This document shows, piece after piece, positions 18,425 to 55,486 of a stretch of 64,000 bases of DNA (positions are counted from its first letter, which is position 1; every line of letters starts with the position of its first letter). Position numbers and translations under genes: made by a program. A model generated the notes under the pieces. The model was not told where the DNA came from, ran no database searches, and worked only from the letters and a program-made list of their open reading frames with translations. Location: contig NZ_CP069247.1 of assembly GCF_021065005.1 (NCBI RefSeq), forward strand, positions 124,001-188,000. The letters are read 5' to 3'. The DNA is from Candidatus Gromoviella agglomerans. Its GTDB lineage: Bacteria > Pseudomonadota > Alphaproteobacteria > CAJXXZ01 > G021065005.

Positions 18425-18539
18425 AAACTAAATATAAATGCGTAAGTGTATAAATCTACCAGTAATAAAAAGTTAATGCAACAATAATTAATAAAAAGTT
18501 AATGCAATATCTAAATTGAATTGCCTGAGAAAGTGCATA

Positions 18540-19130
18540 TTAGAAACTCTTTCCACAACATCTCTGATACATTTGCTATTGTTGCTTATTTAGATACTAC
18601 TTCTGATTTAGGAGCCGCTGATCTTGCCACTCCATCTGATCTTGCTTTCCTATCAGCGTTCATTTTGCTACAACTTCAGTCCAGCTGAGCATTTAAAGTC
18701 TGTTCAGAGACTCTGTTCGACTTCCACCTTCTCCGCTTTCTCACTCTTAGGCAATTGCTCAAACAAATCATCCAGAATACCATTAAACATCTTCATATGA
18801 AAATCGACAAGACATCAATTGGCTCACAGCATCTCCATGAAAACGTTTATGTTTGCACACTTATATTCCAGAATTCCATTATCAACTTACTATTTAGATA
18901 CCATCTCGTAAAATCATACTAAAGAAGATGATTTTGACATTTGAAATCATTTCGATTATTCAATTCCTTAGTCTTAACCTTGAACTCTCTTTCATAGAAA
19001 GGAACTATACTCATCAGCTCAGTCAAATAACCATTTTGAGAGATCACCTTTATCCTAGGAAAGCTCATTATTCGATAAATGTCATTATTCGATAAATGAA
19101 CTAGAGTTTATTTAATCTGATAACAAAGCA
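18540..19130 (-). pseudogene. Highly decayed remnant of a further exported-protein gene
   Basis: Short coding-like pieces remain on the minus strand: about 35 open codons around 18800-18700 (containing GILDDLFEQLPKSEKAEK), a Lys/Ala-rich piece ending near 18590 (NADRKARSDGVARSAAPK), and another around 19060-18930 (GYLTELMSIVPFYEREFKV). All are interrupted by stops. An upstream-type block at about 18490-18545 resembles the conserved region before the intact paralogues. I read this as an older dead member of the island. Confidence 0.5.
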
Positions 19131-19158
19131 AATGTATTATTACTGCACGCGATTATTA

Positions 19159-22100: not shown

Positions 22101-25100
22101 ACTCATTTATCTCACGCTCTAGCTCTTTAGGTTTTACAATAAAAGATAATGTTTTACTCCAAGACCAAACCTCAGGCTCCAACGACCACAACTGCTGATT
22201 TTTTGCATACAATTTTTTAATTTCAGACTTAATCTGATTCTCATCTTTTAGAGAAGCAAATGTAGAATTGCATAATCTTGACAGTTGATTATAATCAACG
22301 TCTTCACCTAATATTTGTTTAAAATTAGCATATCCTCGTAGTGGAAAATTTATCATATCAAGAATATTCATCGCACTATTCTTGAAAGTTTTCCAATTCA
22401 TCTTAGTAGTAATATCAGTAATATTAAACAATACGAAAAAAACATTCAGATCATCACATTGTTTACGCCATCCTTCTACCTTATCCTTATTTGAAAATAA
22501 TCTTTTTATGTCTTCATCAGAATCATTACGGGACAACTCATCCCCCGGCCATTCTCCCATTTCGTTCAGATATTTTTTTATATTAGCAGTAGAGTCATAA
22601 ATATATTTATAACACTGAAAGGTATCAATCAGCAAATCAACAAACAGGTCTCGCACAGCTGCCACAGAGGCAGTGTCCAAAATTCTCATACGAAAGCCAA
22701 AATCTTCATCTAGTTTACGAATCCTATCATTATATTGTCTAGTAAGATCAACCTGCGCTTGTTCCAGCTGTGTCTTTAAATCATTTAACTGATTCGTCGG
22801 CAACTTCTGAGGAGAACCTCCTGCTTGCTGGGGTTTCTGTACTATCTGAGTCGTAAATATAGTATCAGCATCATCAGAAATATCATTCATATTAGCAAAT
22901 TCAAGCAACTTACTCCTTGATTTACAAAACCGCAATCTTAATTGTATCATTTCAGAATTAAGATACGCAGTCTCTTGAGTTTTTGATGCCAAACTAATCT
23001 GCAACTGCGCGTTCTCATCCGCCGCCTTCTGCAACTGCTGCTTCAACTGCGCGTTCTCCTCCGCCGCCTTCTTCAACCCCGCGTTCTCATCCGCCGCCTC
23101 CTTCTGCTGAGCCTTCAACTGATCGATCTGCTGCTTCAACTGCTTGATCTCATTCCTCAACTTAGTGCTCTCGTGGCTCAACCCCGTGTTCTGCTGATGC
23201 GCCTGAGACAACCCATTGTTAGACTGCTCCAGACGCCCCTTCAACTGATCGATCTCATCCGCCGCATGCTGCAACTGCTGCTTCAACTGCGCGTTCTCCT
23301 CCGCCGCCTTCTTCAACTGCGCGTTCTCATCCGCCGCCTTCTTCAACCGCGCGTTCTCCTCCGCCGCCGCCTTCTGCAACCGCGCGTTCTCCGCCGCCAC
23401 CTTCTGCAACTGCTCGATCTGCTGCTTCAACTGCGCGTTCTCCGCCGCTGCCTTCTGCAACCGCTCGTTCTGCTGCTCCAACCGCTCGATCTGCTGCTCC
23501 AACTGCTCGATCTGCTGCTTCAACTGCGCGTTCTCCGCCGCCGCCTTCTGCAACCGCTCGTTCTGCTGCTGAGCCTCCTTCTGCAACCGCGCGTTCTCAT
23601 CCGCCGCCGCCTTCTGCAACCGCGCGTTCTCCTCCGCCGCCACCTTCTTCAACCCCGCGTTCTCATCCGCCGCCTTCTTCAACTGCTCGATCTGCTGCTC
23701 CAACCGCTCGATCTGCTGCTTCAACTGCGCGTTCTCCTCCGCCGCCTGCTGCTGAAGCTCCGTCAACTGCTTCTTCAACTGCTCGTTCTCCGCCTCCACC
23801 TTATTCAACGTACATCTCGTATCAAACCGCTCATTATTTTTCTGAAGCTCTTTTATCTTGGAGGAAAGCTCATTGACATCATTTTTAGCACGAGCAACAA
23901 CCAGACTCAACTCACTCTTCAAATGCAAGATCATATTATCCGCCTGCTGCTGATCCAGCTTCAACCGCTCATTCTCCTGCTGCAAAGACAATGTGTTCAC
24001 ATTAACACCCGAACTCTGGCCGTCCTTCGTATTAAGACTATCCAAAGTAGATTGCAGATTACTCAACTGTTTACTCAATAATTTGTTTTGCTCATTAAGC
24101 CCTTCATTATTCAAACAAACAATACCACACTCCCTCTCCAATCTCATGATCTCAGCGTCCGCCAGCAAATGATCTTCATTCAATTGAGCCTGCAACCGCG
24201 CGATGTTATCCAACGCCTCATATATACACTTTTGCTTGTAATCGCTCTCCTTCTTCAACTGCGCGTTCTGCTGCTGCAACCGCCCGATCTCCTCCGCCGC
24301 ATTCTGCAACTGCTCGATCTGCTGCTGCAACCGCACGATCTGCTCCGCCAACTGCTTATTCAACTGCTCCTTCTCAGCCGCCGCCGCATTCAACTGAGCC
24401 TCCAACCGCCCGATCTGGTGCTGAGCCCCGTTGTTCTCCGCCGCCGCATTCAACCGCTGCTGCAACACCACGATCTCCTCCGCCGCCGCATTCAACTGAG
24501 CCTCCAACCGCTCGATCTGCTGCTGAGCCTGCTGCTCCAACTCTCTGTTATGCCCCACCAACTGCCCGATCTGGTGCTGAGCCCCGTTGTTCTCGTCCTC
24601 CGCCGCATTCAACCGCTGCTGCAACCGCACGATCTCCTCCGCCGCCGCCTTCAACCGATCTTTATAAGAGTACACCAATCTCACAAAACTACCATCATCA
24701 TCAGAATCCAGAAGATTCAATTTCTGATGCACATCATACCAATCATCTTCAATCATACGCTTTTCCATCAATGTCTGAAGACAGCCCAGCCTCTTCTCCA
24801 ACTCAACTTTATCTGTGTTCAACTGCGCACGCAAAGCCTCAACCTTACGACTATTCTTATGCATAGCCTGTAACCGATTGATCTCAGCATCCTTCTCACG
24901 TAATAGACGATTTAACAGCTCGTTCTCATTGGACAACTGATTGGTAAATTTCTGTCTATCCGCACCAGCCTTCAACTGCACATTCTCTTTCTTCAACTGC
25001 GCATTTTCTCGATCTTTTTCAGCAAGTTGTTGCTGCAAATTACGAATAATATCCTCTGGATCATATCCACGCTGAGCATTCAAATACTTTTGCGTAGCAT

Positions 25101-25674
25101 CCAATTGCGATGGCTGAACCTTAACCAGATTTATATGGACCCCACCTGGAGCAGCCTTGTTTTGCAGATTATAACCCGGAGCTGCTCCATACGGCCCAAC
25201 CGGCTTCCCATAAGCGTAAGGAGCTGCTCCATTTACGGAGCCAACCTTCCCCACATAACCCGGAGCTGCTCCATTTACGGAGCCAACCGGCCCCCCATAG
25301 CCAGGAGCTGCTCCATTTACGGAGCCAACCGGCTTCCCATAAGCGTAAGGAGCTGCACCATTTACGGAGCCAACCTTCCCCACATAGCCAGGAGCTGCTC
25401 CATACGGCCCAACAGGCCCCCCATAGCCAGGAGCTGCTCCATTTACGGAGCCAACCGGCTTCCCATAAGCGTAAGGAGCTGCTCCATTTACGGAGCCAAC
25501 CTTCCCCACATAGCCAGGAGCTGCTCCATTTACGGAGCCAACCGGCTTCCATCCACCAAATGGCGGACTATAAACATTATTCACATACGGCACTGCTTCC
25601 GTCGACCCATTCTTCGACGAAAGATGAAACTGATAAGAAATCAAACATAATAGTGGAATAAATACCTTTTTCAC
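19159..25674 (-). CDS. Giant exported coiled-coil protein, 2171 residues
   Basis: Largest of four paralogues; family not recognised. GTG start. The leader MKKVFIPLLCLISYQFHLSS ends near STEA (possible signal-peptidase site). Residues about 40-170 form nine GAAP-containing repeats (GSVNGAAPGYVGKV, GSVNGAAPYAYGKPV and GPYGAAPGYGGPV types). An anchor segment GGVHINLVKVQPSQLDATQK to IIRNLQQQLAEKDR follows and is shared by the three large paralogues. Then comes coiled coil (about 210-930, GC-rich, Gln/Glu/Ala), a mixed globular region (about 950-1300, with Trp/Cys/Phe), and a second, compositionally different coiled coil rich in LADLNTQ/LTNQ repeats (1330-2100), ending in a Gln/Lys tail. Two coiled-coil styles around a globular centre suggest assembly from modules. 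Predicted to be secreted or on the surface; role unknown. Confidence 0.85.
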   Translation of the reverse strand: MKKVFIPLLCLISYQFHLSSKNGSTEAVPYVNNVYSPPFGGWKPVGSVNGAAPGYVGKVGSVNGAAPYAYGKPVGSVNGAAPGYGGPVGPYGAAPGYVGKVGSVNGAAPYAYGKPVGSVNGAAPGYGGPVGSVNGAAPGYVGKVGSVNGAAPYAYGKPVGPYGAAPGYNLQNKAAPGGVHINLVKVQPSQLDATQKYLNAQRGYDPEDIIRNLQQQLAEKDRENAQLKKENVQLKAGADRQKFTNQLSNENELLNRLLREKDAEINRLQAMHKNSRKVEALRAQLNTDKVELEKRLGCLQTLMEKRMIEDDWYDVHQKLNLLDSDDDGSFVRLVYSYKDRLKAAAEEIVRLQQRLNAAEDENNGAQHQIGQLVGHNRELEQQAQQQIERLEAQLNAAAEEIVVLQQRLNAAAENNGAQHQIGRLEAQLNAAAAEKEQLNKQLAEQIVRLQQQIEQLQNAAEEIGRLQQQNAQLKKESDYKQKCIYEALDNIARLQAQLNEDHLLADAEIMRLERECGIVCLNNEGLNEQNKLLSKQLSNLQSTLDSLNTKDGQSSGVNVNTLSLQQENERLKLDQQQADNMILHLKSELSLVVARAKNDVNELSSKIKELQKNNERFDTRCTLNKVEAENEQLKKQLTELQQQAAEENAQLKQQIERLEQQIEQLKKAADENAGLKKVAAEENARLQKAAADENARLQKEAQQQNERLQKAAAENAQLKQQIEQLEQQIERLEQQNERLQKAAAENAQLKQQIEQLQKVAAENARLQKAAAEENARLKKAADENAQLKKAAEENAQLKQQLQHAADEIDQLKGRLEQSNNGLSQAHQQNTGLSHESTKLRNEIKQLKQQIDQLKAQQKEAADENAGLKKAAEENAQLKQQLQKAADENAQLQISLASKTQETAYLNSEMIQLRLRFCKSRSKLLEFANMNDISDDADTIFTTQIVQKPQQAGGSPQKLPTNQLNDLKTQLEQAQVDLTRQYNDRIRKLDEDFGFRMRILDTASVAAVRDLFVDLLIDTFQCYKYIYDSTANIKKYLNEMGEWPGDELSRNDSDEDIKRLFSNKDKVEGWRKQCDDLNVFFVLFNITDITTKMNWKTFKNSAMNILDMINFPLRGYANFKQILGEDVDYNQLSRLCNSTFASLKDENQIKSEIKKLYAKNQQLWSLEPEVWSWSKTLSFIVKPKELEREINESKNVVEKYRNVVKGARFIADDVRTKQNDKTVTVSFVKQLLAELCEHNTCLSGAASYYFKQFNDYHEWYDDLSTRFHTLSVESIQKDQQIHSMRNQIELQAATLVQLETANAKLALDPRFFELQVLKDEHEKLRGEHTKLGLEFKGLSDANVDLKLYSDGLKDDLLYAQTQLNQLKQDNMKMVGLHNQIYDLNTQNGKLKKQLADLNTQFEKEKGRFNDELDRLTNQSQQDKARFNNELDRLTKQSQQEKDGLEQKVADLNVQLADLTKQSQQEKDGLHQKVSDLTTQNGQLNQRVTSLTNQSKQEKDGLEQKVADLNVQLADLTNQNGQLQQQVDALTTQNGQLNQRVTSLIEQSKKEKGGLDQNVRDLTSQNEQLKQQVVHFQNHNGQLNQQLMVAQQSQFSLGNLGLENVSLKAQVESLTKRVQHLQTQLKEKSKELEEQAALVNSLKLKVRNAETCSTELEGVIRSLKMELEDSTQEFGEQTRRLNNDLGNLTQKSKQDKERLEEQLGDLSTQNAALKKRLAELEDRAQQKDALDQQVRDLTSQNAALNRRVDGLNTQNGELRRRLTELEETSRQKDELEEQLADLNTQFEKEKGRFNNELDRLTDQSVQEKGVLEQQVNNLTSQNEGLNKQLADFQNWNAALNKQLDDLTQKSNQEKGISLDQIDSLNKQVTSLTGELQERDGFAIRITDLNKQLAELTNQNGQLQQKIFDLNAKYVQEKDDLEQQVNDLSMGFDKEKNALDRVMAQNEELNSRVEYLTTQNGKLQQQVAELTNQSAQDKGRFDEQLADLNTQNAALQQQLSDLTNQSAQEKGEFERQLVDLNTQNTQLKKQLVDLNTQNAQLKKQLAELKQQAQDLDEAKLSELEKENVILNSRIDELMLDTVKYFDIFDQLKVIPINDNTKLKQLKTNVSALQDRVAELLNEKNAKVQNQFDDNQNNAYFAKKKHNQRQEKTMTQQQEQQQQKKNQQPQKPKNR
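25179..25552 (-). repeat. N-terminal Gly/Ala/Pro/Tyr repeat array of the 2171-residue protein
   Basis: Nine repeats, each encoding G-x-x-x-GAAP-x-Y-x-G-(K/P)-V, with DNA units of about 39-45 bp containing GGAGCTGCTCCATTTACGG on the plus strand. The paralogues at 30.4 kb and 33.8 kb have five and two copies, so copy number varies within one genome. All unit lengths are multiples of three, so gain or loss keeps the frame. Confidence 0.9.
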
Positions 25675-25701
25675 AAACTAAATTAAATGTATGAGTGTAT
25701 G

Positions 25702-25730
25702 AATTTACCAGTAATAAAAAGTTAATGCAA
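25702..25730 (-). promoter_or_regulatory. Predicted promoter of the 2171-residue gene
   Basis: Minus strand: TTGCAT (25730-25725), 17-bp spacer, TAAATT (25707-25702), about 27 bp before the GTG start. No Shine-Dalgarno precedes the start (ATTTAGTTTGTG). The block 25675-25786 is repeated almost exactly at 30426-30537. Confidence 0.6.
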
Positions 25731-25928
25731 TATCTTATTGAATTCCCCTGAGAAAACTCATATTGAGCTAAACTCTAATCCTGTTAAAAAGATTGCACGA
25801 TAATAACTGAATTGTAAATTCACTTCATCTGACCAAATAAATAATCACTTTCCAAAGAAGAGCGGCTATAACTCATACATTCTTCAAGATATTCAGAAAT
25901 TTCAGAAGAATGTTCAACTCAATTAAAC

Positions 25929-28900
25929 TCATACCTCATCAACTTGAATCGTCCTTAGCTCATAGACATTCTGCTGCTTCCGCTGAGCAAGCTCAGCCTC
26001 CAAGTCATCAATATGACCCTTCAACTGAACATTCTCCTCCAGCAACCGAGCAATCCGAGCCTGCAGCGGATCATTCAACTGAACCTTCAAATAATCAAGC
26101 TGACGCTGCAACTGATCAATCTCACTCTCCTCATCCTCATCCTGCTGAACCTGCTGACCATCATCCTCATCCTGCTGACCCTGCTGACCCTCATCCTCAT
26201 GCTCCTGCTGACCCTGCTCCTGCTGAGCCCGCAACTCATCAATCCGAGCCTGCAAGCGATCAATCTCCTCCTGCACCGCCGCATTCAACTGAGCCTTCAA
26301 CTGCTCGATCTGCTCCAGATCCGGCAATTGCTGCTGAGCCAGCGTCAACTGCTGCTGCAACTGATCGTTCTCTGTCGTAAACGGCTCGATCTGCTGCTGA
26401 GCCACATTCTGCGACTGATCGATCTCCTCAAACAACTCCTCCTGAACCTCCTGAACCTCCGGCAACACCGCTTCGTGACGCTGCTCATGGTAACTATTTA
26501 ACTGACGCCTGAATGCAGTAATACCATGGTCCACATTCGTATTCAACTGAGCCAGCATCCGAACAATCCGACCATGCAGCGGATCATTCAACTGAACCTT
26601 CAAATAATCAATCTGATTCTGCAAATTACCAATCTGATTCACCAGACCCTGATCCAATTGATCATTCAATTCAATAACCTTACCCTGCAACTCATCAATC
26701 CGAGCCCGCACCGCCTGCTGCTCCTCCTGCTGCTCCTGCTGCTCCTGCTGACCCTGCTCCTCCTCCTGCTGACCCTGCTCCTGCTGATTCTGCTGACCCG
26801 TCAACTGGGAGTGCAAATCAGCAATCTCCTCCTGCAAACCAGCAATCTTATTCTGCACCTCCTGATTCAACTGAGCCTTCAAATGAGCCATGTGACGCCG
26901 CAAATCAAGAATCCGAGCCTGCACCGTCACATTCAACCGAGCCTCCAACCGAGCATTCTCAACCTCAACACCCAGCAACCGAACAATCCGATCCTCCACC
27001 GACTGATTCAACTGAGCCTGCAAATCAGGAATCTGATTCTGCTGCAAATTAGCAATCTGATCCACCAGATCCTGATCCAATTTACCATGCAATTTAAGAA
27101 TCTGAGCCTCCAACTCATCAATCCGAGCCTGGTGATTCAGCTGATTCTGCAACTGAACAATATCATGCTGCTCCTTCTGCAACCGAACAATCTCATTCCA
27201 CACCACCGGTTCCAACTGACCCTTCAAACTAGCAACCTCACCCTCCAACTCATCAATCCGAGCCTGCACCGCCGCATTCAACCGAGCCTCCAACCGCTCG
27301 ATCCGCTGCTTCAACCGATCCCTCTCAACCTCAACCTCCAGCAACCGAGCAATCCGATCCTGCAGCGGGGCATTCAACTGAGCATTCAAATGAGGAATCT
27401 GATCATGCTGCAAATCAGCAATCTTATTCACCAGCTTCGGATCCAATTGACCATGTAATTTAACAACCTCACCCTGCAACTTATCAATCCGAGCCTGCAC
27501 CGCCTGCACCGCCTGCTGATCCTGCTGACCCGTCAACTGGGAGTGCAAAATATCAATGTCATCCTGCAACCGAACAATCTCATACCGCACCGGCTGATTC
27601 AACTGAGCCTTCAAATTAGCAACCTCACCCTGCAAAACATCAATCCGAGCCTGCACCGCCTCATTCAACTGAGCCACCAACTGCTCGATCTCCTCCGCCG
27701 CGCGCTGCTCCAACTCTCTGTTATGCCCCATCAACCGCCCGATCTGGTGCTGAGCATTCAAATTAACAATCTGATCCTGCACCTCCTGACACTGCTCCTG
27801 CTGAAACTGGAAATAATCAATATCAGCCTCCAAAGGAGCAATCTTATCCCGCAACTGCGCGTTCTCTTGCTGCAACCGCTCGATCTGCTGCTGAGCCTGC
27901 TGCTGCAACTCTCTGTTATGCCCCATCAACTGCCCGATCTCCTCCTCCAACCGCTCGTTCTGCTCCGCCAACTGCTGCTGAGCCAGCGTCAACCGCGCCG
28001 GCAACGGCACGATCTGCTCCGCCAACTGCTGCTGAGCCAGCCTCAACTGCTCGATCTGCTGCTGAGCCCCGTTGTTCTCATCCGCCGCCGCGTGCTGCTT
28101 CAACTGCCCGATCTCCTCCGCCAACTGCTCGTTCTGCTCCACCAACTGCTGCTGAGCCAGCCTCAACTGCCCGATCTCCTCCGCCAACTGCTGCAATTGC
28201 TCGATCTGCTGCTGAACCAGCCTCAACTGCTGCTGCAACCGCCAGTTCTCATCCGCCGCCTCATTCAACTGCTCGTTCTGCTGCTGAGCCCCGTTGTTCT
28301 CATCCTCCGCCGCGTGCTGCTGCAACGGCACGTTATCATACGCCAGCGTCAACTGCTGCTGCAACTGCTCGATCTGCTCCGCCAACTGCTGCTGCAACCA
28401 CTTGTTCTGCTCCGCCAACTGCTGCAATTGCTCGATCTGCTGCTGAACCAGCCTCAACTGCTGCTGCAACCGCTCGTTCTGCCCCGCCACCTCATTCAAC
28501 TGCGCGTTCTGCTGCTCCGCCGCCAACTGCTTCTTCAACTGCTCGTTCTGCTCCGCCAACTGCTGCTGAGCCCCGTTGTTCTCCGCCGCCTTCTTCAACC
28601 CCGCGTTCTCCTCCTTCAACTGCTCGATCTGCTGCTTCAACCGCACGATCTCCTCCTCCGCATTCTTCAACTGCTCCTTCAACTCCGCGTTCTGCTGCCC
28701 CGCCGCATTCAACTGAGCCTCCAACCGCTCGTTCTGCTGCTGAGCCCCGTTGTTCTCGTCCTCCGCCGCCTTCCGCTGAGCCAGCGTCAACTGCTCGTTC
28801 TCCTTCGCCACCAACTGCTGCTGCAACCGCACGATCTCCTCCTCCGCCGCCTTCAACTGATCGATCTGCTGCTGCAACTGCTCGATCTGCTTCTTCAACT

Positions 28901-30425
28901 GCTCGTTCTGCTGCTTCAACTGCTCATTCAACCCATTGTTCTCTTGCTTCAACTGATCGATCTGCTGCCTCAACTGCCCGATCTGCTGCTGCAACCGCAC
29001 GTTCTGCTCCGCCACCAACTGCTGCTGAGCCTGCTGCTCCAACTCTCTGTTATGCCCCATCAACTGCCCGATCTGCTGCTGCAACCGCACGTTCTGCTGC
29101 TTCAACTGCCCGATCTCCTCCTCCGCCTCCTTCAACTGATCGATCTGCTGCTCCGCCGCCAACTGCTTCTTCAACTGCTCGTTCTGCTGCTGCAAGATAT
29201 CGTGCATAGACTTCAAGTCATCGACCACCATCTCCAACTGCCTGATCCGCTGCTGAGCTTCCTGCAACTGCTCGTTCTGCTGCTTCAACAGCCCGATCTC
29301 CTGCACCGCCGCATTCAACTGAGCCTCCAACTGCTCGTTCTGCTGCTGAGCCCCGTTGTTCTCGTCCTCCGCCGCCTTCAACTGATCGATCTGCTGCCTC
29401 AACTGCCCGATCTGCTGCTGCAACCGCACGTTCTGCTCCGCCACCAACTGCTGCTGAGCCTGCTGCTCCAACTCTCTGTTATGCCCCATCAACTGCCCGA
29501 TCTGCTGCTGCAACCGCACGTTCTGCTGCTTCAACTGCCCGATCTCCTCCTCCGCCTCCTTCAACTGATCGATCTGCTGCTCCGCCGCCAACTGCTTCTT
29601 CAACTGCTCGTTCTGCTGCTGCAAGATCTCGTGCATAGACTTCAAGTCATCGACCACCATCTCCAACTGCCCGATCTGCTGATGAGCTTCCTGCAACTGC
29701 TCGTTCTCAGCACCCAACCGATCACGCAATGCCGCATTCTGCCGAACATTCGAAGAAGTGCCATGAGACTTCAACTGCTCGCTCAACTCTGTCTGCAATC
29801 TTTCGTTCCGCAATGCAAGAGATTTGTTCTGTGCATCAATCTCCTTAAAGTTACGAATAACAAAATCGATATCCTTCAACTGCTCTTGCTGCTTATGATT
29901 CAACATCTGGTTCTGATTCTGCAACACGAGCATCTTTCGATCTTTTTCAGCAAGTTGTTGCTGCAAATTACGAATAATATCTTCTGGATCATATCCACGC
30001 TGACCATTCAAATACTTTTGCGTAGCATCCAATTGCCGATTCTGAACCTTAAGAAGATTTATATGGACCCCACCTGGAGCAGCCTGCTTCTGAGGATTAT
30101 AGCCAGGAGCTGCACCATTTACGGAGCCAACCTTCCCCACATAACCCGGAGCTGCTCCATACGGCCCAACCGCCCCCCCATAGCCAGGAGCTGCTCCATT
30201 TACGGAGCCAACCTTCCCCACATAACCCGGAGCTGCTCCATACGGCCCAACAGGCCCCCCATAGCCAGGAGCTGCTCCATTTACGGAGCCAACCGGCTTC
30301 CATCCACCAAATGGCGGACTATAAACATTATTCACATACGGCACTGCTTCCGTCGACCCATTCTTCGACGAAAGATGAAACTGATAAGAAATCAAACATA
30401 ATAGTGGAATAAATACCTTTTTCAC
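25929..30425 (-). CDS. Giant exported coiled-coil protein, 1498 residues
   Basis: Paralogue of the genes on both sides: same GTG start, leader, five GAAP repeats (about residues 45-115), and anchor HINLLKVQNRQLDATQKYL to NLQQQLAEKDRK. The body (about 150-1470) is almost continuous Gln/Glu/Leu coiled coil. Its first half is a mosaic of 10-15-residue blocks such as QIGQLMGHNRELEQQAQQQ and contains a 329-bp direct duplication. Its second half (about 950-1330) is built of longer repeats with ARIDELEGEVASLKGQL and IVRLQ motifs. Near the end an acidic Gln/Asp/Glu stretch (DEGQQGQQDEDDGQQ) precedes a final coil. The second-half repeats do not occur in the other paralogues. DNA is much GC-richer than the flanks. 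Function unknown; predicted to be extracytoplasmic. Confidence 0.85.
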   Translation of the reverse strand: MKKVFIPLLCLISYQFHLSSKNGSTEAVPYVNNVYSPPFGGWKPVGSVNGAAPGYGGPVGPYGAAPGYVGKVGSVNGAAPGYGGAVGPYGAAPGYVGKVGSVNGAAPGYNPQKQAAPGGVHINLLKVQNRQLDATQKYLNGQRGYDPEDIIRNLQQQLAEKDRKMLVLQNQNQMLNHKQQEQLKDIDFVIRNFKEIDAQNKSLALRNERLQTELSEQLKSHGTSSNVRQNAALRDRLGAENEQLQEAHQQIGQLEMVVDDLKSMHEILQQQNEQLKKQLAAEQQIDQLKEAEEEIGQLKQQNVRLQQQIGQLMGHNRELEQQAQQQLVAEQNVRLQQQIGQLRQQIDQLKAAEDENNGAQQQNEQLEAQLNAAVQEIGLLKQQNEQLQEAQQRIRQLEMVVDDLKSMHDILQQQNEQLKKQLAAEQQIDQLKEAEEEIGQLKQQNVRLQQQIGQLMGHNRELEQQAQQQLVAEQNVRLQQQIGQLRQQIDQLKQENNGLNEQLKQQNEQLKKQIEQLQQQIDQLKAAEEEIVRLQQQLVAKENEQLTLAQRKAAEDENNGAQQQNERLEAQLNAAGQQNAELKEQLKNAEEEIVRLKQQIEQLKEENAGLKKAAENNGAQQQLAEQNEQLKKQLAAEQQNAQLNEVAGQNERLQQQLRLVQQQIEQLQQLAEQNKWLQQQLAEQIEQLQQQLTLAYDNVPLQQHAAEDENNGAQQQNEQLNEAADENWRLQQQLRLVQQQIEQLQQLAEEIGQLRLAQQQLVEQNEQLAEEIGQLKQHAAADENNGAQQQIEQLRLAQQQLAEQIVPLPARLTLAQQQLAEQNERLEEEIGQLMGHNRELQQQAQQQIERLQQENAQLRDKIAPLEADIDYFQFQQEQCQEVQDQIVNLNAQHQIGRLMGHNRELEQRAAEEIEQLVAQLNEAVQARIDVLQGEVANLKAQLNQPVRYEIVRLQDDIDILHSQLTGQQDQQAVQAVQARIDKLQGEVVKLHGQLDPKLVNKIADLQHDQIPHLNAQLNAPLQDRIARLLEVEVERDRLKQRIERLEARLNAAVQARIDELEGEVASLKGQLEPVVWNEIVRLQKEQHDIVQLQNQLNHQARIDELEAQILKLHGKLDQDLVDQIANLQQNQIPDLQAQLNQSVEDRIVRLLGVEVENARLEARLNVTVQARILDLRRHMAHLKAQLNQEVQNKIAGLQEEIADLHSQLTGQQNQQEQGQQEEEQGQQEQQEQQEEQQAVRARIDELQGKVIELNDQLDQGLVNQIGNLQNQIDYLKVQLNDPLHGRIVRMLAQLNTNVDHGITAFRRQLNSYHEQRHEAVLPEVQEVQEELFEEIDQSQNVAQQQIEPFTTENDQLQQQLTLAQQQLPDLEQIEQLKAQLNAAVQEEIDRLQARIDELRAQQEQGQQEHEDEGQQGQQDEDDGQQVQQDEDEESEIDQLQRQLDYLKVQLNDPLQARIARLLEENVQLKGHIDDLEAELAQRKQQNVYELRTIQVDEV
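28950..29707 (-). repeat. 329-bp direct duplication inside the 1498-residue gene
   Basis: Bases 28950-29278 and 29379-29707 are nearly identical, offset by 429 bp (143 codons), with only a few differences (for example GATATCG versus GATCTCG near 29197/29626). Both copies encode the block from VVDDLKSMH through QIGQLMGHNRELEQQ to QQIDQLK. The low divergence implies a recent in-frame duplication. Confidence 0.88.
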
Positions 30426-30452
30426 AAACTAAATTAAATGTATGAGTGTATG

Positions 30453-30481
30453 AATTTACCAGTAATAAAAAGTTAATGCAA
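30453..30481 (-). promoter_or_regulatory. Predicted promoter of the 1498-residue gene
   Basis: Minus strand: TTGCAT (30481-30476), 17-bp spacer, TAAATT (30458-30453). The surrounding roughly 110 bp match the region upstream of the 2171-residue gene. Confidence 0.6.
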
Positions 30482-30550
30482 TATCTTATTGAATTCCCCT
30501 GAGAAAACTCATATTGAGCTAAACTCTAATCCTACTCAATATTCTGAACC

Positions 30551-33500
30551 TTATTTATTTGAGTCACGGTTTAATTGTGGTGTATAAAAAAATCTACTTT
30601 CTTCATGATCAATGAAATTCGGCTGCTTACCCATTGAACCTTCGAACGACTGCACAAGCTTTAAATTATCCAAACGAACAATAATATCATTTTTTCTCTT
30701 TAGCAACAGTTGAAACAACAATTGCCTATAATTATTCTTGGGAATGGACAACACAACCTCATTAATAATACTAAAAAAATCATTAAATGCATTACACAAC
30801 GCACGATAAAAATCATTATAAAAAGTATTATCTGTTCTAAAACAATGAATATAATTTGCATTAGATAACAGTTCATCACAGAAAAAGCAAAATTTTTGCA
30901 AAAACGGATATGGAGTATCAAATCGCAGACAAACCAGATTTATACGATCAGCGTCCATAGGATCTCCTTGCATATATTGTCCTAATTGTATACCCTTTCT
31001 GTCGAATTCTACTGTATATTGCGCCTTCTTGCTTGCCAATTCTGCTTCATATTGCGCCTTCTTTCTTTCCAATTGTGCTCTACATTCAGACGAAATAGAT
31101 GCAACATTCTCTGTAAAATAAGCAAGCAGATTATTCGAATTCGGATTCATAATAAGCCTCAATTCATTCTCTAATTTATCCTGTCTATTCAATTGACTAT
31201 CAAACAAAGCCTGCAAGTCCATCCTCTCCATATAATACAAAGCATTCTGCAAGTACATCATCTTGTTATACAAAGTAAGCATGGAATGATTCTGCAAATC
31301 AACCTGCTCCGAAGGATTTTTCTTCTGCAAACCTTGCCGCTTTTGCTGCAATTTCTGCTCGCAATCATTTATGTTTGTCTTCAAATAATATATCTGCTCA
31401 TACAAATTCTGCTGCTGCTCCCAAAACTCAAGATACTTTTTCAACTCACGACACAAATTACTCTGCTCCAAAAATTGTTGATCCCCCAAAGACTCTTCCT
31501 GATTCAACTTTTTCTGCTTCAAATTCTCATTATACTCCTTCTGCAAATCATATATCCGATCATTCACAGTTGTTATCTGACTAGTCAAAAAACGCACCTG
31601 ATTACCATGCAACTCACACATCTTCTGTTCTAAAATTTCTTTCTGGTGCTGCTGCAAAACCTGTTCCTGCTGCTGCTCCAAAGCCTGTTCCTGCTGCTGC
31701 AAAGCCTCTTTCTGCTTCTGCTGCAAAACCTGTTCCTGCTGCTGCAAAACCTGTTCCTGCTGCTGCAAAACCTGTTCCTGCTGCTGCTGCAAAACCTGTT
31801 CCTGCTTCTGCAAAGCCTCTTTCTGCTTCTGCTGCAAAACCTGTTCCTGCTGCTGCAAAACCTGTTCCTGCTGCTGCAAATCGTGCCATTCTTGCAAAGC
31901 CTCTTTCTGCTGCTCCAAAGCCTGTTCCTGCTGTTTCTGCAACTGCTCCAAAGCCTGTTCCTGCCGCTGCTGCAAAGCCTCTTTCTGCTTCTGCAAAACC
32001 TGTTCCTGCTGCTGCAAAACCTGTTCCTGCCGCTGCTGCAAAACCTGTTCCTGCCGCTGCAAAGCCTCTTTCTGCTTCTGCAAAACCTGTTCCTGCTGCT
32101 GCTCCAAATCACTCATCTGCTGCTGCAAAACCTCTTTCTGCTTCTGCAAATCATCCTCCAGCTGCTTAGACAAAGCAAATATCTGCTTGTGTAAAATATC
32201 GTTCTCATCCAAAACCTCTTTCTGCTGTTTCTGCAACTGCTCCAAAGCCTGTTCCTGCTGTTTCTGCAACTGCTCACGGAGATCTATAGAAGCAGCTTGC
32301 AATTTATTAAACAAAATAAGAGCCGGCCTCTTAAATTGATCATTCAACTGCTCGTTCTCCTGCTGCAACTGCTGCAACTGCTGTATCTGCTGCTGCAACT
32401 GCTGTATCTGCTGCTTCAACTGCTTGATCTCATCATACTTCTGAGATAATACACGACATAACAGAGCGTTCTCATTGGACAATTGATTGAAAAACTTCTG
32501 TCTATCCGCACCCGCCTTCAACTTATCGTTCTGAGTCTGTAATTGCGCGTTACTCGCATTCAATCGCGCGATCTCTTCATCCTTCGCCTTCAATTTCGCC
32601 TTCAACAAGCGGTTCTCCTGTGCCAACTCAGCGTTCACCGCATACATACTACTCTCATCTGTCTTTTTCATCTTCGCAGTCTTATGCATCGCAGCATTCA
32701 AATCATTGCTCGCTTGGATGTGAGCATACTTCAAAGGTTGAATCTCAGCTTTCTGGCGCTTCATGTTAGCATTCAACTTTTTCAACGCTTGGCTGTAACA
32801 CCACTCAAAATGTTCAATCCTACGTTGAGCGCGCTTCAGATAATCTATATCAGGGTCTTCAGTCCCATCATCATACACTACACGATTCCTTGCAATAGCA
32901 TTCTCAAGACGGGGCAAGGATCCTTTATCTTCATCCAAACGCGCCTTCAAGCACTCGATCTCCACCTTCAAAGGCTCGTTCTCAACATCATAGCGCCGCT
33001 GCGCTTCATACAAAGCCTGCCACGCAGCATGAGAAAGAGTCCTCAATTTCGCAATATTCTCTTCATCAGCATGCAAAGCATTAATCTTCTTCAACCTACA
33101 CTGCAACTCTGCATTCTCCACCATCAATGATATGACCTCGTGCTCACTCTCCTTTACCCTCTGCGCATCCCTCTCATAAGCCCTGTACTGACTAAGTAAC
33201 TTAGAGGCTTGCAATTCCTTCAAACTATCCATCCTATGACCCGACTTGAAGTACGCAACCTTTTGTTTTAACTCTTTCTGTATTTTAGACAAACTATCAT
33301 TATCAGCGACATCTCTTAACTCATCAATCGAAGTGATCAATGCCTTTAATTCAGATTGCAGATCCGTCAAGTTATCAGTGTTATTCAAATCTGCAATGTA
33401 CACAAGCAAATCTTTCAACAAAGGCCTCTGCACATTTCTCACACTGAACAAATGAGTAATATCTTTAATCTTTCGATCTTTTTCAGCAAGTTGTTGCTGC

Positions 33501-33841
33501 AAATTACGAATAATATCTTCTGGATCATATCCACGCTGAGCATTCAAATACTTTTGCGTAGCATCCAATTGCGATGGCTGAACCTTAACCAGATTTATAT
33601 GGACCCCACCTGGAGCAGCCTGCTTCTGAGGATTATAGCCAGGAGCTGCACCATTTACGGAGCCAACCGGCTTCCCATAAGAGTAAGCAGCTGCTCCATA
33701 CGGCCCAACCGGATTCCATCCACCAAATGGCGGACTATAAACATTATTCACATACGGCACTGCTTCCGTCGACCCATTCTTCGACGAAAGATGAAACTGA
33801 TAAGAAATCAAACATAATAGTGGAATAAATACCTTTTTCAC
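30551..33841 (-). CDS. Exported coiled-coil protein, 1096 residues
   Basis: Third large paralogue: GTG start, same leader, two GAA repeats (about residues 45-70) and the same anchor (HINLVKVQPSQLDATQKYL to QQQLAEKDRK), then its own body. Residues about 130-480 are mixed helical with several Cys. About 490-760 is a very regular heptad region built from QEQVLQQ, QKEALQK and similar units. About 780-950 is a second coil, and the last roughly 150 residues are globular, rich in Phe/Tyr/Cys (FLQKFCFFCDELL), and end at NRDSNK. The globular tail is unlike the ends of its paralogues and could be a functional domain, but I recognise no family. Predicted to be secreted or on the surface. Confidence 0.85.
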   Translation of the reverse strand: MKKVFIPLLCLISYQFHLSSKNGSTEAVPYVNNVYSPPFGGWNPVGPYGAAAYSYGKPVGSVNGAAPGYNPQKQAAPGGVHINLVKVQPSQLDATQKYLNAQRGYDPEDIIRNLQQQLAEKDRKIKDITHLFSVRNVQRPLLKDLLVYIADLNNTDNLTDLQSELKALITSIDELRDVADNDSLSKIQKELKQKVAYFKSGHRMDSLKELQASKLLSQYRAYERDAQRVKESEHEVISLMVENAELQCRLKKINALHADEENIAKLRTLSHAAWQALYEAQRRYDVENEPLKVEIECLKARLDEDKGSLPRLENAIARNRVVYDDGTEDPDIDYLKRAQRRIEHFEWCYSQALKKLNANMKRQKAEIQPLKYAHIQASNDLNAAMHKTAKMKKTDESSMYAVNAELAQENRLLKAKLKAKDEEIARLNASNAQLQTQNDKLKAGADRQKFFNQLSNENALLCRVLSQKYDEIKQLKQQIQQLQQQIQQLQQLQQENEQLNDQFKRPALILFNKLQAASIDLREQLQKQQEQALEQLQKQQKEVLDENDILHKQIFALSKQLEDDLQKQKEVLQQQMSDLEQQQEQVLQKQKEALQRQEQVLQQRQEQVLQQQEQVLQKQKEALQQRQEQALEQLQKQQEQALEQQKEALQEWHDLQQQEQVLQQQEQVLQQKQKEALQKQEQVLQQQQEQVLQQQEQVLQQQEQVLQQKQKEALQQQEQALEQQQEQVLQQHQKEILEQKMCELHGNQVRFLTSQITTVNDRIYDLQKEYNENLKQKKLNQEESLGDQQFLEQSNLCRELKKYLEFWEQQQNLYEQIYYLKTNINDCEQKLQQKRQGLQKKNPSEQVDLQNHSMLTLYNKMMYLQNALYYMERMDLQALFDSQLNRQDKLENELRLIMNPNSNNLLAYFTENVASISSECRAQLERKKAQYEAELASKKAQYTVEFDRKGIQLGQYMQGDPMDADRINLVCLRFDTPYPFLQKFCFFCDELLSNANYIHCFRTDNTFYNDFYRALCNAFNDFFSIINEVVLSIPKNNYRQLLFQLLLKRKNDIIVRLDNLKLVQSFEGSMGKQPNFIDHEESRFFYTPQLNRDSNK
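31640..32115 (-). repeat. QEQVLQQ/QKEAL heptad repeat tract
   Basis: About twenty short in-frame units of 21-30 bp, read on the plus strand as variations of CTGTTCCTGCTGCTGCAAAA. They encode seven- to ten-residue coiled-coil heptads and are prone to slippage. Divergence between units is low in the middle of the tract. Confidence 0.8.
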
Positions 33842-33868
33842 AAACTAAATTAAATGTATAAGTGTATA

Positions 33869-33897
33869 AATTTACCAGTAATAAAAAATTAATGCAA
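33869..33897 (-). promoter_or_regulatory. Predicted promoter of the 1096-residue gene
   Basis: Minus strand: TTGCAT (33897-33892), 17-bp spacer, TAAATT (33874-33869). Same arrangement and distance to the GTG start as in the other paralogues; similarity stops soon after the -35 box. Confidence 0.55.
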
Positions 33898-34097
33898 TAA
33901 GTAAAAAAACTAAAAAAATGTCTGAATTTATTACAAAATAGACACTATGTTTACGATTGACCAAATGATCATATTCGTTAACTGCAAATCCAAGAATTAC
34001 TTTTGCGATAAATATCTCTTATCGTGGGTTCAACATATTCTTCAACCCAACCATATAATCATTAGACTTTAGACTTTTTATCCAACGCCTGCTGATA

Positions 34098-34913
34098 CTA
34101 GGCATCTTTCTGAGCTTTCCAAGCAGAATATTGCTCAGCCATCGCCTTCAACCCAACCATATAATCATTAGACTTTTTATCCAACTCATGCTGATGCTCG
34201 GCCTCTTTCTGAGCTTTCCAATCGGAATATTTAGCAGCCATCGCCTTCAATTCACGGATATACCAAGCACACTTCTCATCAAATCGCTGCTGATAGTTAT
34301 CATTCAACTCCTTCAACTGGGCATCTTTCTGAACTTTCCAAGCGGAATAGTCCCCCTCCATCGCCTTCAACCCAACCATATAATCATTAGACTTTTTATC
34401 CAACTCATGCTGATGCTCGGCCTCTTTCTGAGCTTTCCAATCGGAATATTTAGCAGCCATCGCCTTCAACTCATCAATATACCAAGCACACTTCTCATCA
34501 AATCGCTGCTGATAGTTATCATTCAACTCCTTCAACTGGGCATCTTTCTGAACTTTCCAAGCGGAATAGTCCCCCTCCATCGCCTTCAACCCAACCATAT
34601 AATCATTAGACTTTTTATCCAACTCATGCTGATGCTCGGCCTCTTTCTGAGCTTTCCAATCGGAATATTGCTCATCCATCGCCTTCAACTCACCAATATA
34701 CCAAGCACACTTCTCATCAAATCGCTGCTGATAGGTATCATTCAACTCCTTCAACTTAGCGATATACAAAGTATCCTTCTCATCAAATTGCTGCTGCTGA
34801 TTCTGCTGAAGTTGTTGATCTATAGGTAACATTGCTTCCGTCGACGCATTCTTCGATGAGATATAAAACTGACAAGAAATCAAACATAAAAGTGGAACAA
34901 ATATCTTTTTCAC
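34098..34913 (-). CDS. Exported repeat protein, 271 residues, probably truncated
   Basis: GTG start, with a leader related to the large paralogues (MKKIFVPLLCLISCQFYISS, then KNASTEAMLP) but without the GAAP array or the anchor. Residues about 40-271 are a 73-residue tandem repeat (219 bp offset, compare 34351 and 34570). Each unit has LKELNDNYQQRFDEKCAWYI, LKAMAAKYSDWKAQKEAEHQ and HELDKKSNDYMVGLKAM segments and one Cys per unit, which could crosslink chains. Beyond the TAG at 34095-34097 the repeat continues (YQQALDKKSK, then out of frame SNDYMVGLK) to about 34015, so the gene appears cut short by a nonsense mutation followed by a small frameshift. It may still make a stable product; function unknown. 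Confidence 0.75.
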   Translation of the reverse strand: MKKIFVPLLCLISCQFYISSKNASTEAMLPIDQQLQQNQQQQFDEKDTLYIAKLKELNDTYQQRFDEKCAWYIGELKAMDEQYSDWKAQKEAEHQHELDKKSNDYMVGLKAMEGDYSAWKVQKDAQLKELNDNYQQRFDEKCAWYIDELKAMAAKYSDWKAQKEAEHQHELDKKSNDYMVGLKAMEGDYSAWKVQKDAQLKELNDNYQQRFDEKCAWYIRELKAMAAKYSDWKAQKEAEHQHELDKKSNDYMVGLKAMAEQYSAWKAQKDA

Positions 34914-34940
34914 AAACTAAATTAAATGTATAAGTGTATA

Positions 34941-34969
34941 AATTTACCAGTAACAAAAAATTAATGCAA
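34941..34969 (-). promoter_or_regulatory. Predicted promoter of the 271-residue gene
   Basis: Minus strand: TTGCAT (34969-34964), 17-bp spacer, TAAATT (34946-34941), the same layout as in the three large paralogues. Confidence 0.55.
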
Positions 34970-35188
34970 TATCTTAATTAAGATTTCTCAATTTTATTAC
35001 TCTAGATTCTGTTCCAATCAATCAAATCACATTCGTTATTGTTATCTTTTTATTCATCTGTTATATTTAGTCAATCTCATTTATATTTTCATTGTTTGCA
35101 TAATAAAGTTCAGTGCTATAATTTTTATATAAAAAATCAGTCGTCATTGGCACAAAACTCATGATATCATCATAAAAAACTACTCTCA

Positions 35189-36974: not shown

Positions 36975-37147
36975 AAATATTAAATAAGAATAAGCCATTA
37001 CCATTATCATCAAATAAATAATATCAATATTTTACTAACGAATGAACATTACTCTATGAGAACGGATAAAAATTCAAAAGACAAAAGTCAGCACTAACGT
37101 TGATTTAACCTCATAGGTTAATAACAAAAATATAATGTAAAGATTTA

Positions 37148-38225: not shown

Positions 38226-39869
38226 TTACGAAATGCTCCAACGTCGTCGGATTTCTTGCATTTCATGACCATTTTCAGCGTTAAACTGCGGCGCACGTAC
38301 CTGATTTTTCTGATTTTGCCGCTGCGCACGTAGCTGATTTTGCCGATCTTGCTGCTGCTGTCCCGCCTGCTGACCCTGCTCAATATCTATCAGCAATTGT
38401 TTAATCCGTTCTTGAAATTTAACAGGAGCCACGTGGAAAACATAACCAATATCTCTCCCAATCCTACCTAAATTTTCATTTCGTTTCTTTAGATCCATTC
38501 GTTTACAATTTTTGAAATCTTTTTCCCATGATCCAAGACAGTCTACCAAGATCCGAATACATTCTGCTTCTTCTTTATTACTACTGACGTACTGCGCCTG
38601 ACCTGGCTGGACATACGAAGATTTCTGCTGATGCTCATACGACACATATGGCAACGATGATTGACGATTCTGCGACGACAATTGCTGCGCAGATGGCGAC
38701 GCAGGTGGATGACCCCTGTTTTGTTGTGAGTGTTGTTGAGTTTGTTGCACTTTATATCCTGAACTTCCATCATTTCCTGCCTGAGCATTGGCTTGAGTTT
38801 GATATTTAAATGGTTGTTTGATTTGCCTTTCATTAACATTGCCCAGCTCCTGTTTGGCAAAGAAATTTCGTATATTATTAACGATCTGTGGTTTTATAAT
38901 ACCACTCGAGTATTCTACTGTCGGCTGTTGTTGTTTCACCCCATAAGCTATCATAAAATAACAAGTAAGTGGCAGCGCCTCCAACTCATGCAATTTAAGA
39001 TGTCCAAATTGTTGCTCTGATGCATTTTGTATGTCTACCCATCTACTCAGCCACTCATAATACAAAGGCTCATCAGACTTATCCAAATACACATAAAAAC
39101 TATCATAACATGGCGAGCCATTAATATTATAACCAACATGTATATTTACAGGCATAATATATTTTCCTGCACAAACAAGAATAGATGGTGTAAGTAATGT
39201 CGTAGAATTTGCAAATGTCACCTGACCAAGATACGCACCCAAAAATCTCTTTCCATTTTTTAAGCCATTATAGTATGCGTTCATTTTTTCAAAAAACTGA
39301 ACATGATCCTTAGAATTTTGAGCGATTTTTAACAAATCAAAAGGATTCGTCTCAGCAACAGGCAGAGAATAAATACGAGGAGGAGTATATGAGGAAGGAC
39401 AACACATCATGCCATAACCATCAGAATCCACACAAGAATGGAAAGGACCACTTAACTCGATGTTTTGATTAGGCAACTGAACATCAACTGGCTGCACATA
39501 TCGTTTTTGCTGCTTATACTTACTAGCTTGTGGCTGCCACTCAAACTGCGCCCTCTGCTCAGGCTGCTGATAAACCTGCTCAGGCTGCACCGACCAATTA
39601 TTCGGCACATGACCCAGCTGCCGCAATATATCCACAAAACACAGAGGATCCCTATAATCATATGGAACTTTACCAGTCCTAGTGCCATCAGGAAAGTGCG
39701 CTTTATAATTCGTCACGGGCATATACCAAACAGGTTTCTCAATGATCGAACACAACTCCTGCGGCTGCGGCGGATTTGAACAAGGAATAGGAGGAGCAGC
39801 TAACACACTAACACTTCCAACACCAAAACACACACTCAAACATAAAAAATTTCTCAAAAAAACATTCAT
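38226..39869 (-). CDS. Exported Gln/Pro-rich mosaic protein A, 547 residues
   Basis: Signal peptide MNVFLRNFLCLSVCFGVGSV with a clear cleavage site after SVLA (about residue 24). Residues 25-100 are Pro/Cys-rich. From about 100 to 285 it shares a nearly identical core with the neighbour at 40.1 kb, containing ELSGPFHSCVDSDGYGMMCC, YTPPRIYSLPVAETNPFDLL, FLGAYLGQVTFANSTTLLTP and a globular beta-like part ending near LSRWVDIQNAS. Its own C-terminal half has a KPQIVNNIRNFFAKQELGN region, a Gln/Ser-rich linker, a helical stretch with LVDCLGSWEKDFKNCKRMD and a Gln/Arg tail. At least six Cys lie after the signal peptide, so it is probably disulfide-bonded in the periplasm or outside. No family recognised. 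Confidence 0.8.
   Translation of the reverse strand: MNVFLRNFLCLSVCFGVGSVSVLAAPPIPCSNPPQPQELCSIIEKPVWYMPVTNYKAHFPDGTRTGKVPYDYRDPLCFVDILRQLGHVPNNWSVQPEQVYQQPEQRAQFEWQPQASKYKQQKRYVQPVDVQLPNQNIELSGPFHSCVDSDGYGMMCCPSSYTPPRIYSLPVAETNPFDLLKIAQNSKDHVQFFEKMNAYYNGLKNGKRFLGAYLGQVTFANSTTLLTPSILVCAGKYIMPVNIHVGYNINGSPCYDSFYVYLDKSDEPLYYEWLSRWVDIQNASEQQFGHLKLHELEALPLTCYFMIAYGVKQQQPTVEYSSGIIKPQIVNNIRNFFAKQELGNVNERQIKQPFKYQTQANAQAGNDGSSGYKVQQTQQHSQQNRGHPPASPSAQQLSSQNRQSSLPYVSYEHQQKSSYVQPGQAQYVSSNKEEAECIRILVDCLGSWEKDFKNCKRMDLKKRNENLGRIGRDIGYVFHVAPVKFQERIKQLLIDIEQGQQAGQQQQDRQNQLRAQRQNQKNQVRAPQFNAENGHEMQEIRRRWSIS
39018..39573 (-). repeat. Shared core block, copy 1
   Basis: About 555 bp nearly identical to 40386-40941 with a constant offset of 1368 bp and no indels. 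One difference I noted is GGAAAGGACC (39437) versus GGAACGGACC (40805). Sequence on both sides of the block differs sharply between the two genes except for leader and upstream region. Confidence 0.9.
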
Positions 39870-39904
39870 ATACTGTATTCAAAAAAAAATCACTGAAAGT
39901 CTAA

Positions 39905-39920
39905 TATAGTAAACACTATA
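39905..39920. promoter_or_regulatory. Perfect TATAGT-AAAC-ACTATA inverted repeat upstream of gene A
   Basis: Six-base arms with a 4-bp gap, 36 bp before the start codon, where it would overlap the promoter. An identical 16-bp site at the same kind of position precedes the paralogue at 41709-41724. About 110 bp around both sites are also conserved, so conservation alone does not prove function. Confidence 0.45.
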
Positions 39921-40073
39921 AATCAATCATTTACAAAATTTAATCATTCACAATATTCTTTCTCACACATTCAGGTTTTAGCTATTATCATGTATTAAAC
40001 TTAGACCAGACAAAATATTTATTTGTAATAAAGTCATCTACATGCGTTCAAGTTGATGCAATCCACTTATCAC

Positions 40074-41672
40074 TCACGATTGCTGCGCAGATGGAGTGAT
40101 ATTCTGCTGCAATAGATACCCCTGAGACATGATAGTCTGACGCTGCTGCACATACGGTACCTGATACTGCGCATCTATAGTACCCGACTTAGGCGGCAGA
40201 GACGGCGACAGCGACGGCGGCACATACTGCAGCGAAAGTGTTCCATTAGGAATTTGCGCCAGCTGCTGCGTAGATGGCTGCTGCGCACAAATAAACGGAT
40301 AATGATACAAAATCACAAAACCAGTTGAACAAGTAAGTGGCAGCGCCTCCAACTCATCGAATTTAACCTGTCCAGGTTGTTGGATTGATGCATTTTGTAT
40401 GTCTACCCATCTACTCAGCCACTCATAATACAAAGGCTCATCAGACTTATCCAAATACACATAAAAACTATCATAACATGGCGAGCCATTAATATTATAA
40501 CCAACATGTATATTTACAGGCATAATATATTTTCCTGCACAAACAAGAATAGATGGTGTAAGTAATGTCGTAGAATTTGCAAATGTCACCTGACCAAGAT
40601 ACGCACCCAAAAATCTCTTTCCATTTTTTAAGCCATTATAGTATGCGTTCATTTTTTCAAAAAACTGAACATGATCCTTAGAATTTTGAGCGATTTTTAA
40701 CAAATCAAAAGGATTCGTCTCAGCAACAGGCAGAGAATAAATACGAGGAGGAGTATATGAGGAAGGACAACACATCATGCCATAACCATCAGAATCCACA
40801 CAAGAATGGAACGGACCACTTAACTCGATGTTTTGATTAGGCAACTGAACATCAACTGGCTGCACATATCGTTTTTGCTGCTTATACTTACTAGCTTGTG
40901 GCTGCCACTCAAACTGCGCCCTCTGCTCAGGCTGCTGATAACCCTGCGGAACCGGCTGCTGAGGCTGAGCAGGCTGCTGATAACCCTGCGGAGGCGTCTG
41001 CTGATAAACCTGCTGAGGCTGCTGCGGATAACCCTGCTGAGGCTGCTGATAAACCTGCTGATAACCCTGCTGAGGCTGCTGATAAACCTGCTGATAAACC
41101 TGCTGAGGCTGCTGATAAACCTGCTGATAAACCTGCTGAGGCTGCTGATAAACCTGCTGATAACCCTGCTGAGGCTGCTGATAAACCTGCTGATAAACCT
41201 GCTGAGGCTGCTGCTGATAAACCTGCTGATAACCCTGCTGAGGCTGTTGATAAACCTGCTGAGGCTGCAGACGCTCAACCTCTCCAGCACTATTCACTTG
41301 CGCCACAGGAGACATATCAGGCTTCTTATGAGTAAGCGATTGAAACGCCTCTGCAGATACAAGATGACCAAAAAAATAAGGACTAGGGTACAACAGAAGC
41401 GGAGGCTGTCCTTGCACCTGCCGCGCCTGCGATTGCTGCTGATAACCCTGCGGAGGCGTCTGCTGAGGCTGAGCAGGCTGCCGATAACCCTGCTGAGGCG
41501 TCTGCGGACGAGGATCATTAACATGCGAAATCGACTGCTGACAACCCGCCTGCTGCACCTGCGCTTCCGGACAAAACTGCCCCCCATCCGGTCGATTTGA
41601 AGCTAACACACTAACACTTCCAACACCAAAACACACACTCAAACATAAAAAATTTCTCAAAAAAATATTCAT
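40074..41672 (-). CDS. Exported Gln/Pro/Tyr-rich mosaic protein B, 532 residues
   Basis: Signal peptide almost identical to protein A, cleaved after SVLA. Residues about 25-145 are Gln/Pro-rich and about 145-245 is a low-complexity array of YQQPQQ and VYQQ units. Next is the shared core (about 250-430; HSCVDSDGYGMMCCPSSY to WVDIQNAS), then a short unique end (FVILYHYPFICAQQPSTQQL) and a Pro/Ser/Gln tail. The array takes the place of the short Pro/Cys-rich region in protein A, and the C-terminal half of A is absent, so the two share leader and core but exchange their ends. Tyr/Gln-rich arrays of this kind tend to self-associate (inference). No named family recognised. Confidence 0.8.
   Translation of the reverse strand: MNIFLRNFLCLSVCFGVGSVSVLASNRPDGGQFCPEAQVQQAGCQQSISHVNDPRPQTPQQGYRQPAQPQQTPPQGYQQQSQARQVQGQPPLLLYPSPYFFGHLVSAEAFQSLTHKKPDMSPVAQVNSAGEVERLQPQQVYQQPQQGYQQVYQQQPQQVYQQVYQQPQQGYQQVYQQPQQVYQQVYQQPQQVYQQVYQQPQQGYQQVYQQPQQGYPQQPQQVYQQTPPQGYQQPAQPQQPVPQGYQQPEQRAQFEWQPQASKYKQQKRYVQPVDVQLPNQNIELSGPFHSCVDSDGYGMMCCPSSYTPPRIYSLPVAETNPFDLLKIAQNSKDHVQFFEKMNAYYNGLKNGKRFLGAYLGQVTFANSTTLLTPSILVCAGKYIMPVNIHVGYNINGSPCYDSFYVYLDKSDEPLYYEWLSRWVDIQNASIQQPGQVKFDELEALPLTCSTGFVILYHYPFICAQQPSTQQLAQIPNGTLSLQYVPPSLSPSLPPKSGTIDAQYQVPYVQQRQTIMSQGYLLQQNITPSAQQS
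40386..40941 (-). repeat. Shared core block, copy 2
   Basis: Second copy of the 555-bp block described at 39018-39573. Divergence begins abruptly at both ends: at the ATNQN-equivalent side near 40385 and at the start of the QQ-rich array near 40941. Confidence 0.9.
40942..41270 (-). repeat. YQQPQQ/VYQQ tandem array in protein B
   Basis: About 330 bp of in-frame units, read on the plus strand as CTGCTGAGGCTGCTGATAAA and CTGCTGATAACC variants, encoding (V/G)YQQ and PQQ blocks. Unit sizes are multiples of three. Several adjacent units are identical, which indicates recent expansion. Confidence 0.9.
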
Positions 41673-41708
41673 ATACTGTATTCAAAAAAATCACCAGGAA
41701 AATTTTAA

Positions 41709-41724
41709 TATAGTAAACACTATA
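41709..41724. promoter_or_regulatory. Perfect TATAGT-AAAC-ACTATA inverted repeat upstream of gene B
   Basis: Identical 16-bp palindrome to 39905-39920, 37 bp before the start codon; see also the imperfect copy upstream of the MucR-like gene. Confidence 0.45.
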
Positions 41725-41876
41725 AATCAATCATTTACAAAATTTAATCATTCACAATATTCTTTCTCATACATTCAGGTTTTAGCTATTATCATGTTTA
41801 AAATTAACGGTTCAACATAAATAAAAAAACGCAGACACAATATCTGTAAAATCAGTCAAAATTCGTTTGCATTCCT

Positions 41877-46493: not shown

Positions 46494-46653
46494 AATATAT
46501 ACAAAAAGCACGATAAATGTTATATCACCAACTTATTAATATCAAGCTAATAGCTTGAAACTACAAATTTGAAAAAACATCTTAAAATGATTACAAAAAT
46601 CTGTAATGATCAGGAATTTTAATGTATCATTGAGCAAAATCTGCGCATTATTA

Positions 46654-55431: not shown

Positions 55432-55486
55432 ATAATATAAATATTTTATTAATTGTAATTTAATTAACAATCAAAAAAGGAGATAT

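Follow-up and report, generated by a model that had tools for sequence, protein, structure and literature searches.

Two neighbouring genes of the obligate symbiont Candidatus Gromoviella agglomerans, here called A and B, are read as tandem paralogues encoding fast-evolving Sec-exported host-interface proteins, in which a promoter and leader block and an internal core would have been homogenised by gene conversion while the remainder diverged; this reading is given about an even chance. The pattern looks like local copy-correction between neighbours, not like a switching system. From the comparison of the two genes we infer the order of events, conversion instead of one recent duplication, and action of the proteins at or beyond the cell surface.

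Ca. Gromoviella agglomerans belongs to the Holosporaceae and is a symbiont of Paramecium polycaryum, with a genome of 590 kbp in one contig (PMC11909080). The window, that is, the whole stretch of DNA analysed, is 64,000 bp long and comprises bases 124001-188000 of the single 589,967-bp contig. The comparison of A and B rests on two copies from one strain. Both genes are intact:

40074..41672, minus strand: gene B, 532 aa exported orphan with a Q/P/Y-rich repeat region, a predicted Sec-type signal peptide and no family match
38226..39869, minus strand: gene A, 547 aa exported orphan with a Q/R/K-rich tail, a predicted Sec-type signal peptide and no family match

B is followed head-to-tail by A, with an intergenic distance of 204 bp, and clpP, clpX and lon lie upstream of the pair; clpP and clpX were identified, and the signal peptides of A and B called, by eye. 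Between the pair and a pseudouridine-synthase-like gene, the same strand carries two more small orphan ORFs (36210-37777) that may encode signal peptides.

Shared and unshared blocks of A and B

Alignment of the two genes divides them into the following segments:

41601..41806, minus strand: upstream region and signal-peptide codons of B
39798..40003, minus strand: upstream region and signal-peptide codons of A
40386..40937, minus strand: core of B, 184 codons including GYGMMCC
39018..39569, minus strand: core of A, 184 codons including GYGMMCC
40328..40385, minus strand: 3' border of B, a 28-bp variable stretch and 30 bp identical to A (ends LPLTC)
38960..39017, minus strand: 3' border of A, counterpart of the 28-bp variable and 30-bp identical stretch
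40074..40327, minus strand: 3' region of B not shared with A (similarity not significant), without a second genome copy
38226..38959, minus strand: 3' region of A not shared with B (similarity not significant), without a second genome copy
41022..41262, minus strand: tandem repeat array in the unshared part of B, 33-bp unit, 7.2 copies, 94% match (Tandem Repeats Finder)

The common leader and upstream region described in the earlier note were confirmed, with 94% identity over 209 aligned columns. Only one difference occurs in the first 72 nt of the genes, after which similarity is lost abruptly; nucleotide 72 immediately precedes the predicted cleavage site (SVSVLA). Upstream, the identity extends about 130 bp 5' of the ATG, apart from a single messy patch of about 20 bp. 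Both genes are preceded by a copy of the upstream region, and both point the same way. A promoter scan returned many matches on both strands and is uninformative there, the DNA being AT-rich.

The core likewise proved to be nearly identical and free of indels, as had been claimed: 552 bp contain one difference, a synonymous change in a proline codon, so that about 113 synonymous sites carry a single change. This indicates recent common descent or copying, not selection alone. That the pair is ancient and that strong purifying selection, with no recombination, has kept promoter, leader and core alike is accordingly highly improbable. The shared blocks do match functional units (the upstream region, the signal peptide and the Cys-containing domain), but about 112 of 113 core synonymous sites are unchanged while adjacent codons are unrelated.

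At the 5' border, the identity continues for 4 nt beyond the core into a Q/P repeat unit (YQQPEQ) that is common to both genes, amplified in B into the array listed above and present in A as a remnant. The 3' border is ragged: a stretch of 28 bp has nine differences, all non-synonymous and altering six residues, and is followed by 30 identical bp and then by unalignable sequence. Nine differences in the 33 columns after the core, versus one in 552, is a strong excess (Fisher p about 2e-11), and this succession of a variable and an identical stretch reads as a patchy tract end. Including the border stretches, the whole shared core block spans 620 bp with 98.2% identity.

The remaining segments, which the earlier note had called unrelated, gave local alignment scores within the range of shuffled sequences. 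Between leader and core (75 aa in A versus 220 aa in B) the real score was reached by 202 of 500 shuffles; for the parts beyond the shared block (about 245 residues in A versus 85 in B), 137 of 500 did so. Gradual divergence along the full length, named in the earlier note together with a lack of further copies as speaking against a mosaic, was not seen; the lack of further copies was borne out. Searches of the genome with the 3.5-kb DNA, the upstream and leader DNA and both proteins as queries found only A and B.

Origin of the shared blocks

A near-identical synonymous tract beside unrelated flanks is a hallmark of gene conversion, and it is found here. Under this reading, the promoter and signal-peptide block and the 184-codon core would be kept alike through ectopic homologous recombination between the neighbours, while segments outside the shared blocks would be altered by repeat slippage (the Q/P repeats), illegitimate joining and rearrangement. 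Homologous recombination is available to this bacterium, as recA, recR and mutS were found in its genome. MutS normally damps recombination between diverged copies, and the presence of its gene counts against the conversion reading. Either the unrelated ends of A and B are old or they have been replaced, and the genome searches revealed no source for them.

The main competitor is one recent event, either a tandem duplication or the copying of leader and core into the neighbour, with the middle and the tail replaced afterwards or at the same time and no ongoing conversion; it is a serious possibility, held with clearly less than even confidence. The two readings disagree on whether upstream region and core are of different age. 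Upstream divergence (5-7 differences of 113, counted by eye from the alignment) does not significantly exceed the synonymous divergence of the core (p 0.07-0.21), and separate homogenisation events are therefore not proven; an age difference on these neutral-like sites is suggestive only. The low divergence of leader, upstream region and core is thus compatible with one age, as a single event would have it. Such an event would, however, require that two separate segments were replaced at the borders of functional modules, all within the time of one synonymous change, in a genome without a source for the new segments. The succession of nine changes in 28 bp and 30 identical bp is also hard to obtain through point mutation. 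The proposal of the earlier note, gene conversion or a recent duplication followed by end replacement, is thus partly supported, by the near-identical synonymous sites and the abrupt borders.

Active antigenic or phase variation, in which ends are swapped with silent cassettes, is very unlikely. Its attraction is that the architecture, in which the genes have 5' region and signal peptide in common, the mature parts combine unique with shared blocks, and repeats occur, resembles the mycoplasma Vpma/Vsp families (PMC2268961). However, leader, core and ends have no further copies in a single-contig genome, A and B are both intact and co-oriented, each with its own upstream region, and inspection of the ORFs from 34 to 46 kb revealed no local recombinase gene. 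As the assembly holds no further copy or silent cassette, donor-cassette antigenic variation is not supported, and the likening of the pair to antigen-variation systems in the earlier note could not be upheld: there is no donor repertoire, and A and B are both complete and have separate upstream regions.

An assembly chimera or mis-joined repeat is scarcely credible, since a wrong join across the 552-bp core, which exceeds short-read length and could be crossed wrongly, may swap ends but cannot make two copies, and both ORFs are intact across every border within the single contig.

Known systems and relatives

The mode of evolution of A and B is of a familiar kind, while the proteins are orphans. 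In the concertedly evolving bacterial pair tufA/tufB, gene conversion homogenises the whole gene; A and B would be similarly homogenised paralogues, but in selected blocks only.

The Vpma/Vsp genes of Mycoplasma agalactiae and M. bovis also encode tandem exported proteins with a conserved 5' untranslated region and signal peptide, and with mature parts composed of unique and shared blocks and tandem repeats (PMC2268961). A conserved 5' region and signal peptide with differing mature parts are found both in A and B and in the coiled-coil family described below. Unlike A and B, the mycoplasma proteins are lipoproteins, and a Xer-type recombinase inverts DNA around one promoter (PMC2268961); here the pair is co-oriented with two copies of the upstream region, and the ORFs at 34-46 kb include no recombinase.

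The msp2/p44 expression site and functional pseudogenes of Anaplasma, like A and B, combine conserved blocks with unlike segments, and they come from a comparable setting for exported proteins, an obligate intracellular alphaproteobacterium (PMC4534519). In msp2, however, a variable centre lies between conserved ends, whereas in A and B a conserved core lies between unlike segments, and for the latter pair no donor pseudogenes and no Pfam match were found. A repertoire of silent or partial copies, as in donor-cassette systems of the msp2, pilE/pilS and vlsE type, was absent from whole-genome DNA and protein searches. The omp-1/p28 and map1 clusters of Ehrlichia are, like A and B, tandem full-length exported paralogues of a reduced intracellular bacterium (PMC4534519), but they form a surface antigen family with curated profiles, while A and B have no Pfam family.

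No match to A or B was found in Pfam up to E = 1, including the pfam01617 surface antigens, or in NCBIfam up to E = 0.1. Among 60 related genomes there was no credible relative; the weak matches all had E >0.005 and low identity, and were taken as noise. Searches of genome_contigs (one genome per species), viral_contigs, plasmids, PHROGs and PDB were equally negative. In members of the same order, other genes follow lon, with no A/B-like protein at this place. On present evidence, A and B thus appear to be orphans of their own lineage.

Other exported proteins and possible role

A second tandem family, of exported coiled-coil (CC) proteins, lies in the same window:

18341..34976, minus strand: tandem family with a common upstream region and leader (5' ends 86-100% alike across about 140-200 bp) and mostly different bodies
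25674-19159, minus strand: CC1
30425-25929, minus strand: CC2
33841-30551, minus strand: CC3
34913-34098, minus strand: CC4
18341-18481 (leader 18424-18341), minus strand: decayed copy

The family includes one short copy besides the decayed one, shares the leader MKKVFIPLLCLIS and has a 2171-aa protein as its largest product. Within 198 bp of upstream and 5' coding DNA, CC1 and CC2 show no difference; over about 145 bp of 5' sequence, CC3 is 98% alike and CC4 91%. From about 0.4-0.6 kb onward, only short repeat-like pieces are common to the bodies. To judge from these alignments, the family is an independent example of the A/B design, a common upstream region and leader joined to unlike bodies.

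A further coiled-coil gene (14655-16253) contains repeat modules (about 15515-15692) that match, with up to 96% identity over 58-69 bp, repeat modules (L054:7088-8269) in the gene of a 1624-aa protein of exported type located about 100 kb away, suggesting that repeats may be exchanged across the genome between separate exported coiled-coil genes. Together with the CC family, these matches indicate that recycling export cassettes and repeat modules is a local theme, not peculiar to A and B, and both speak for the conversion reading. Adjoining the gene of the 1624-aa protein is a tyrosine-recombinase-like ORF (L054:10891-11832), probably a housekeeping Xer protein.

The GYGMMCC core had been put forward as a possible functional domain. 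The motif is indeed present and the core contains five cysteines; support for a function from a family or fold was not obtained, and the AlphaFold prediction from the single sequence gave a pLDDT of 31. The core may be a conserved working domain, with the Q/P-rich and Q/R-rich ends as variable low-complexity contact surfaces, and both proteins probably face the host or the bacterial surface. Disulfide bonds between the core cysteines were considered and are not assumed, because no DsbB family match was found.

Strongly reduced symbiont genomes usually shed duplicated and repetitive DNA. It is conceivable, although improbable, that this 590-kb symbiont repeatedly reuses a fixed export cassette and a core domain and replaces the other parts, thereby generating new host-directed proteins without an archive of silent cassettes. 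Within a 25-kb stretch, this genome has two tandem families whose large orphan exported products are both built on a reused export cassette; they point to genes for contact with Paramecium and to recombination as a generator of new host-contact genes. If strain data showed exchange of blocks, A and B would represent a simple two-gene system for the concerted evolution of protein modules. Ca. Gromoviella aggregates inside its host (PMC11909080), and a tie between these aggregates and the A and B proteins is pure speculation.

Repeats also occur elsewhere in the window. In secA (46606-50286), 75-bp tandem repeats (AGRFGDSPRERR, ARFGTSTG) occur in a long C-terminal extension, which is unusual for SecA. 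A phage-like gene block (54397-62939) encodes an HK97-type portal protein (NCBIfam), with neighbours resembling protease, capsid and tail genes, and carries a 92-bp exact tandem repeat at 55923-56200.
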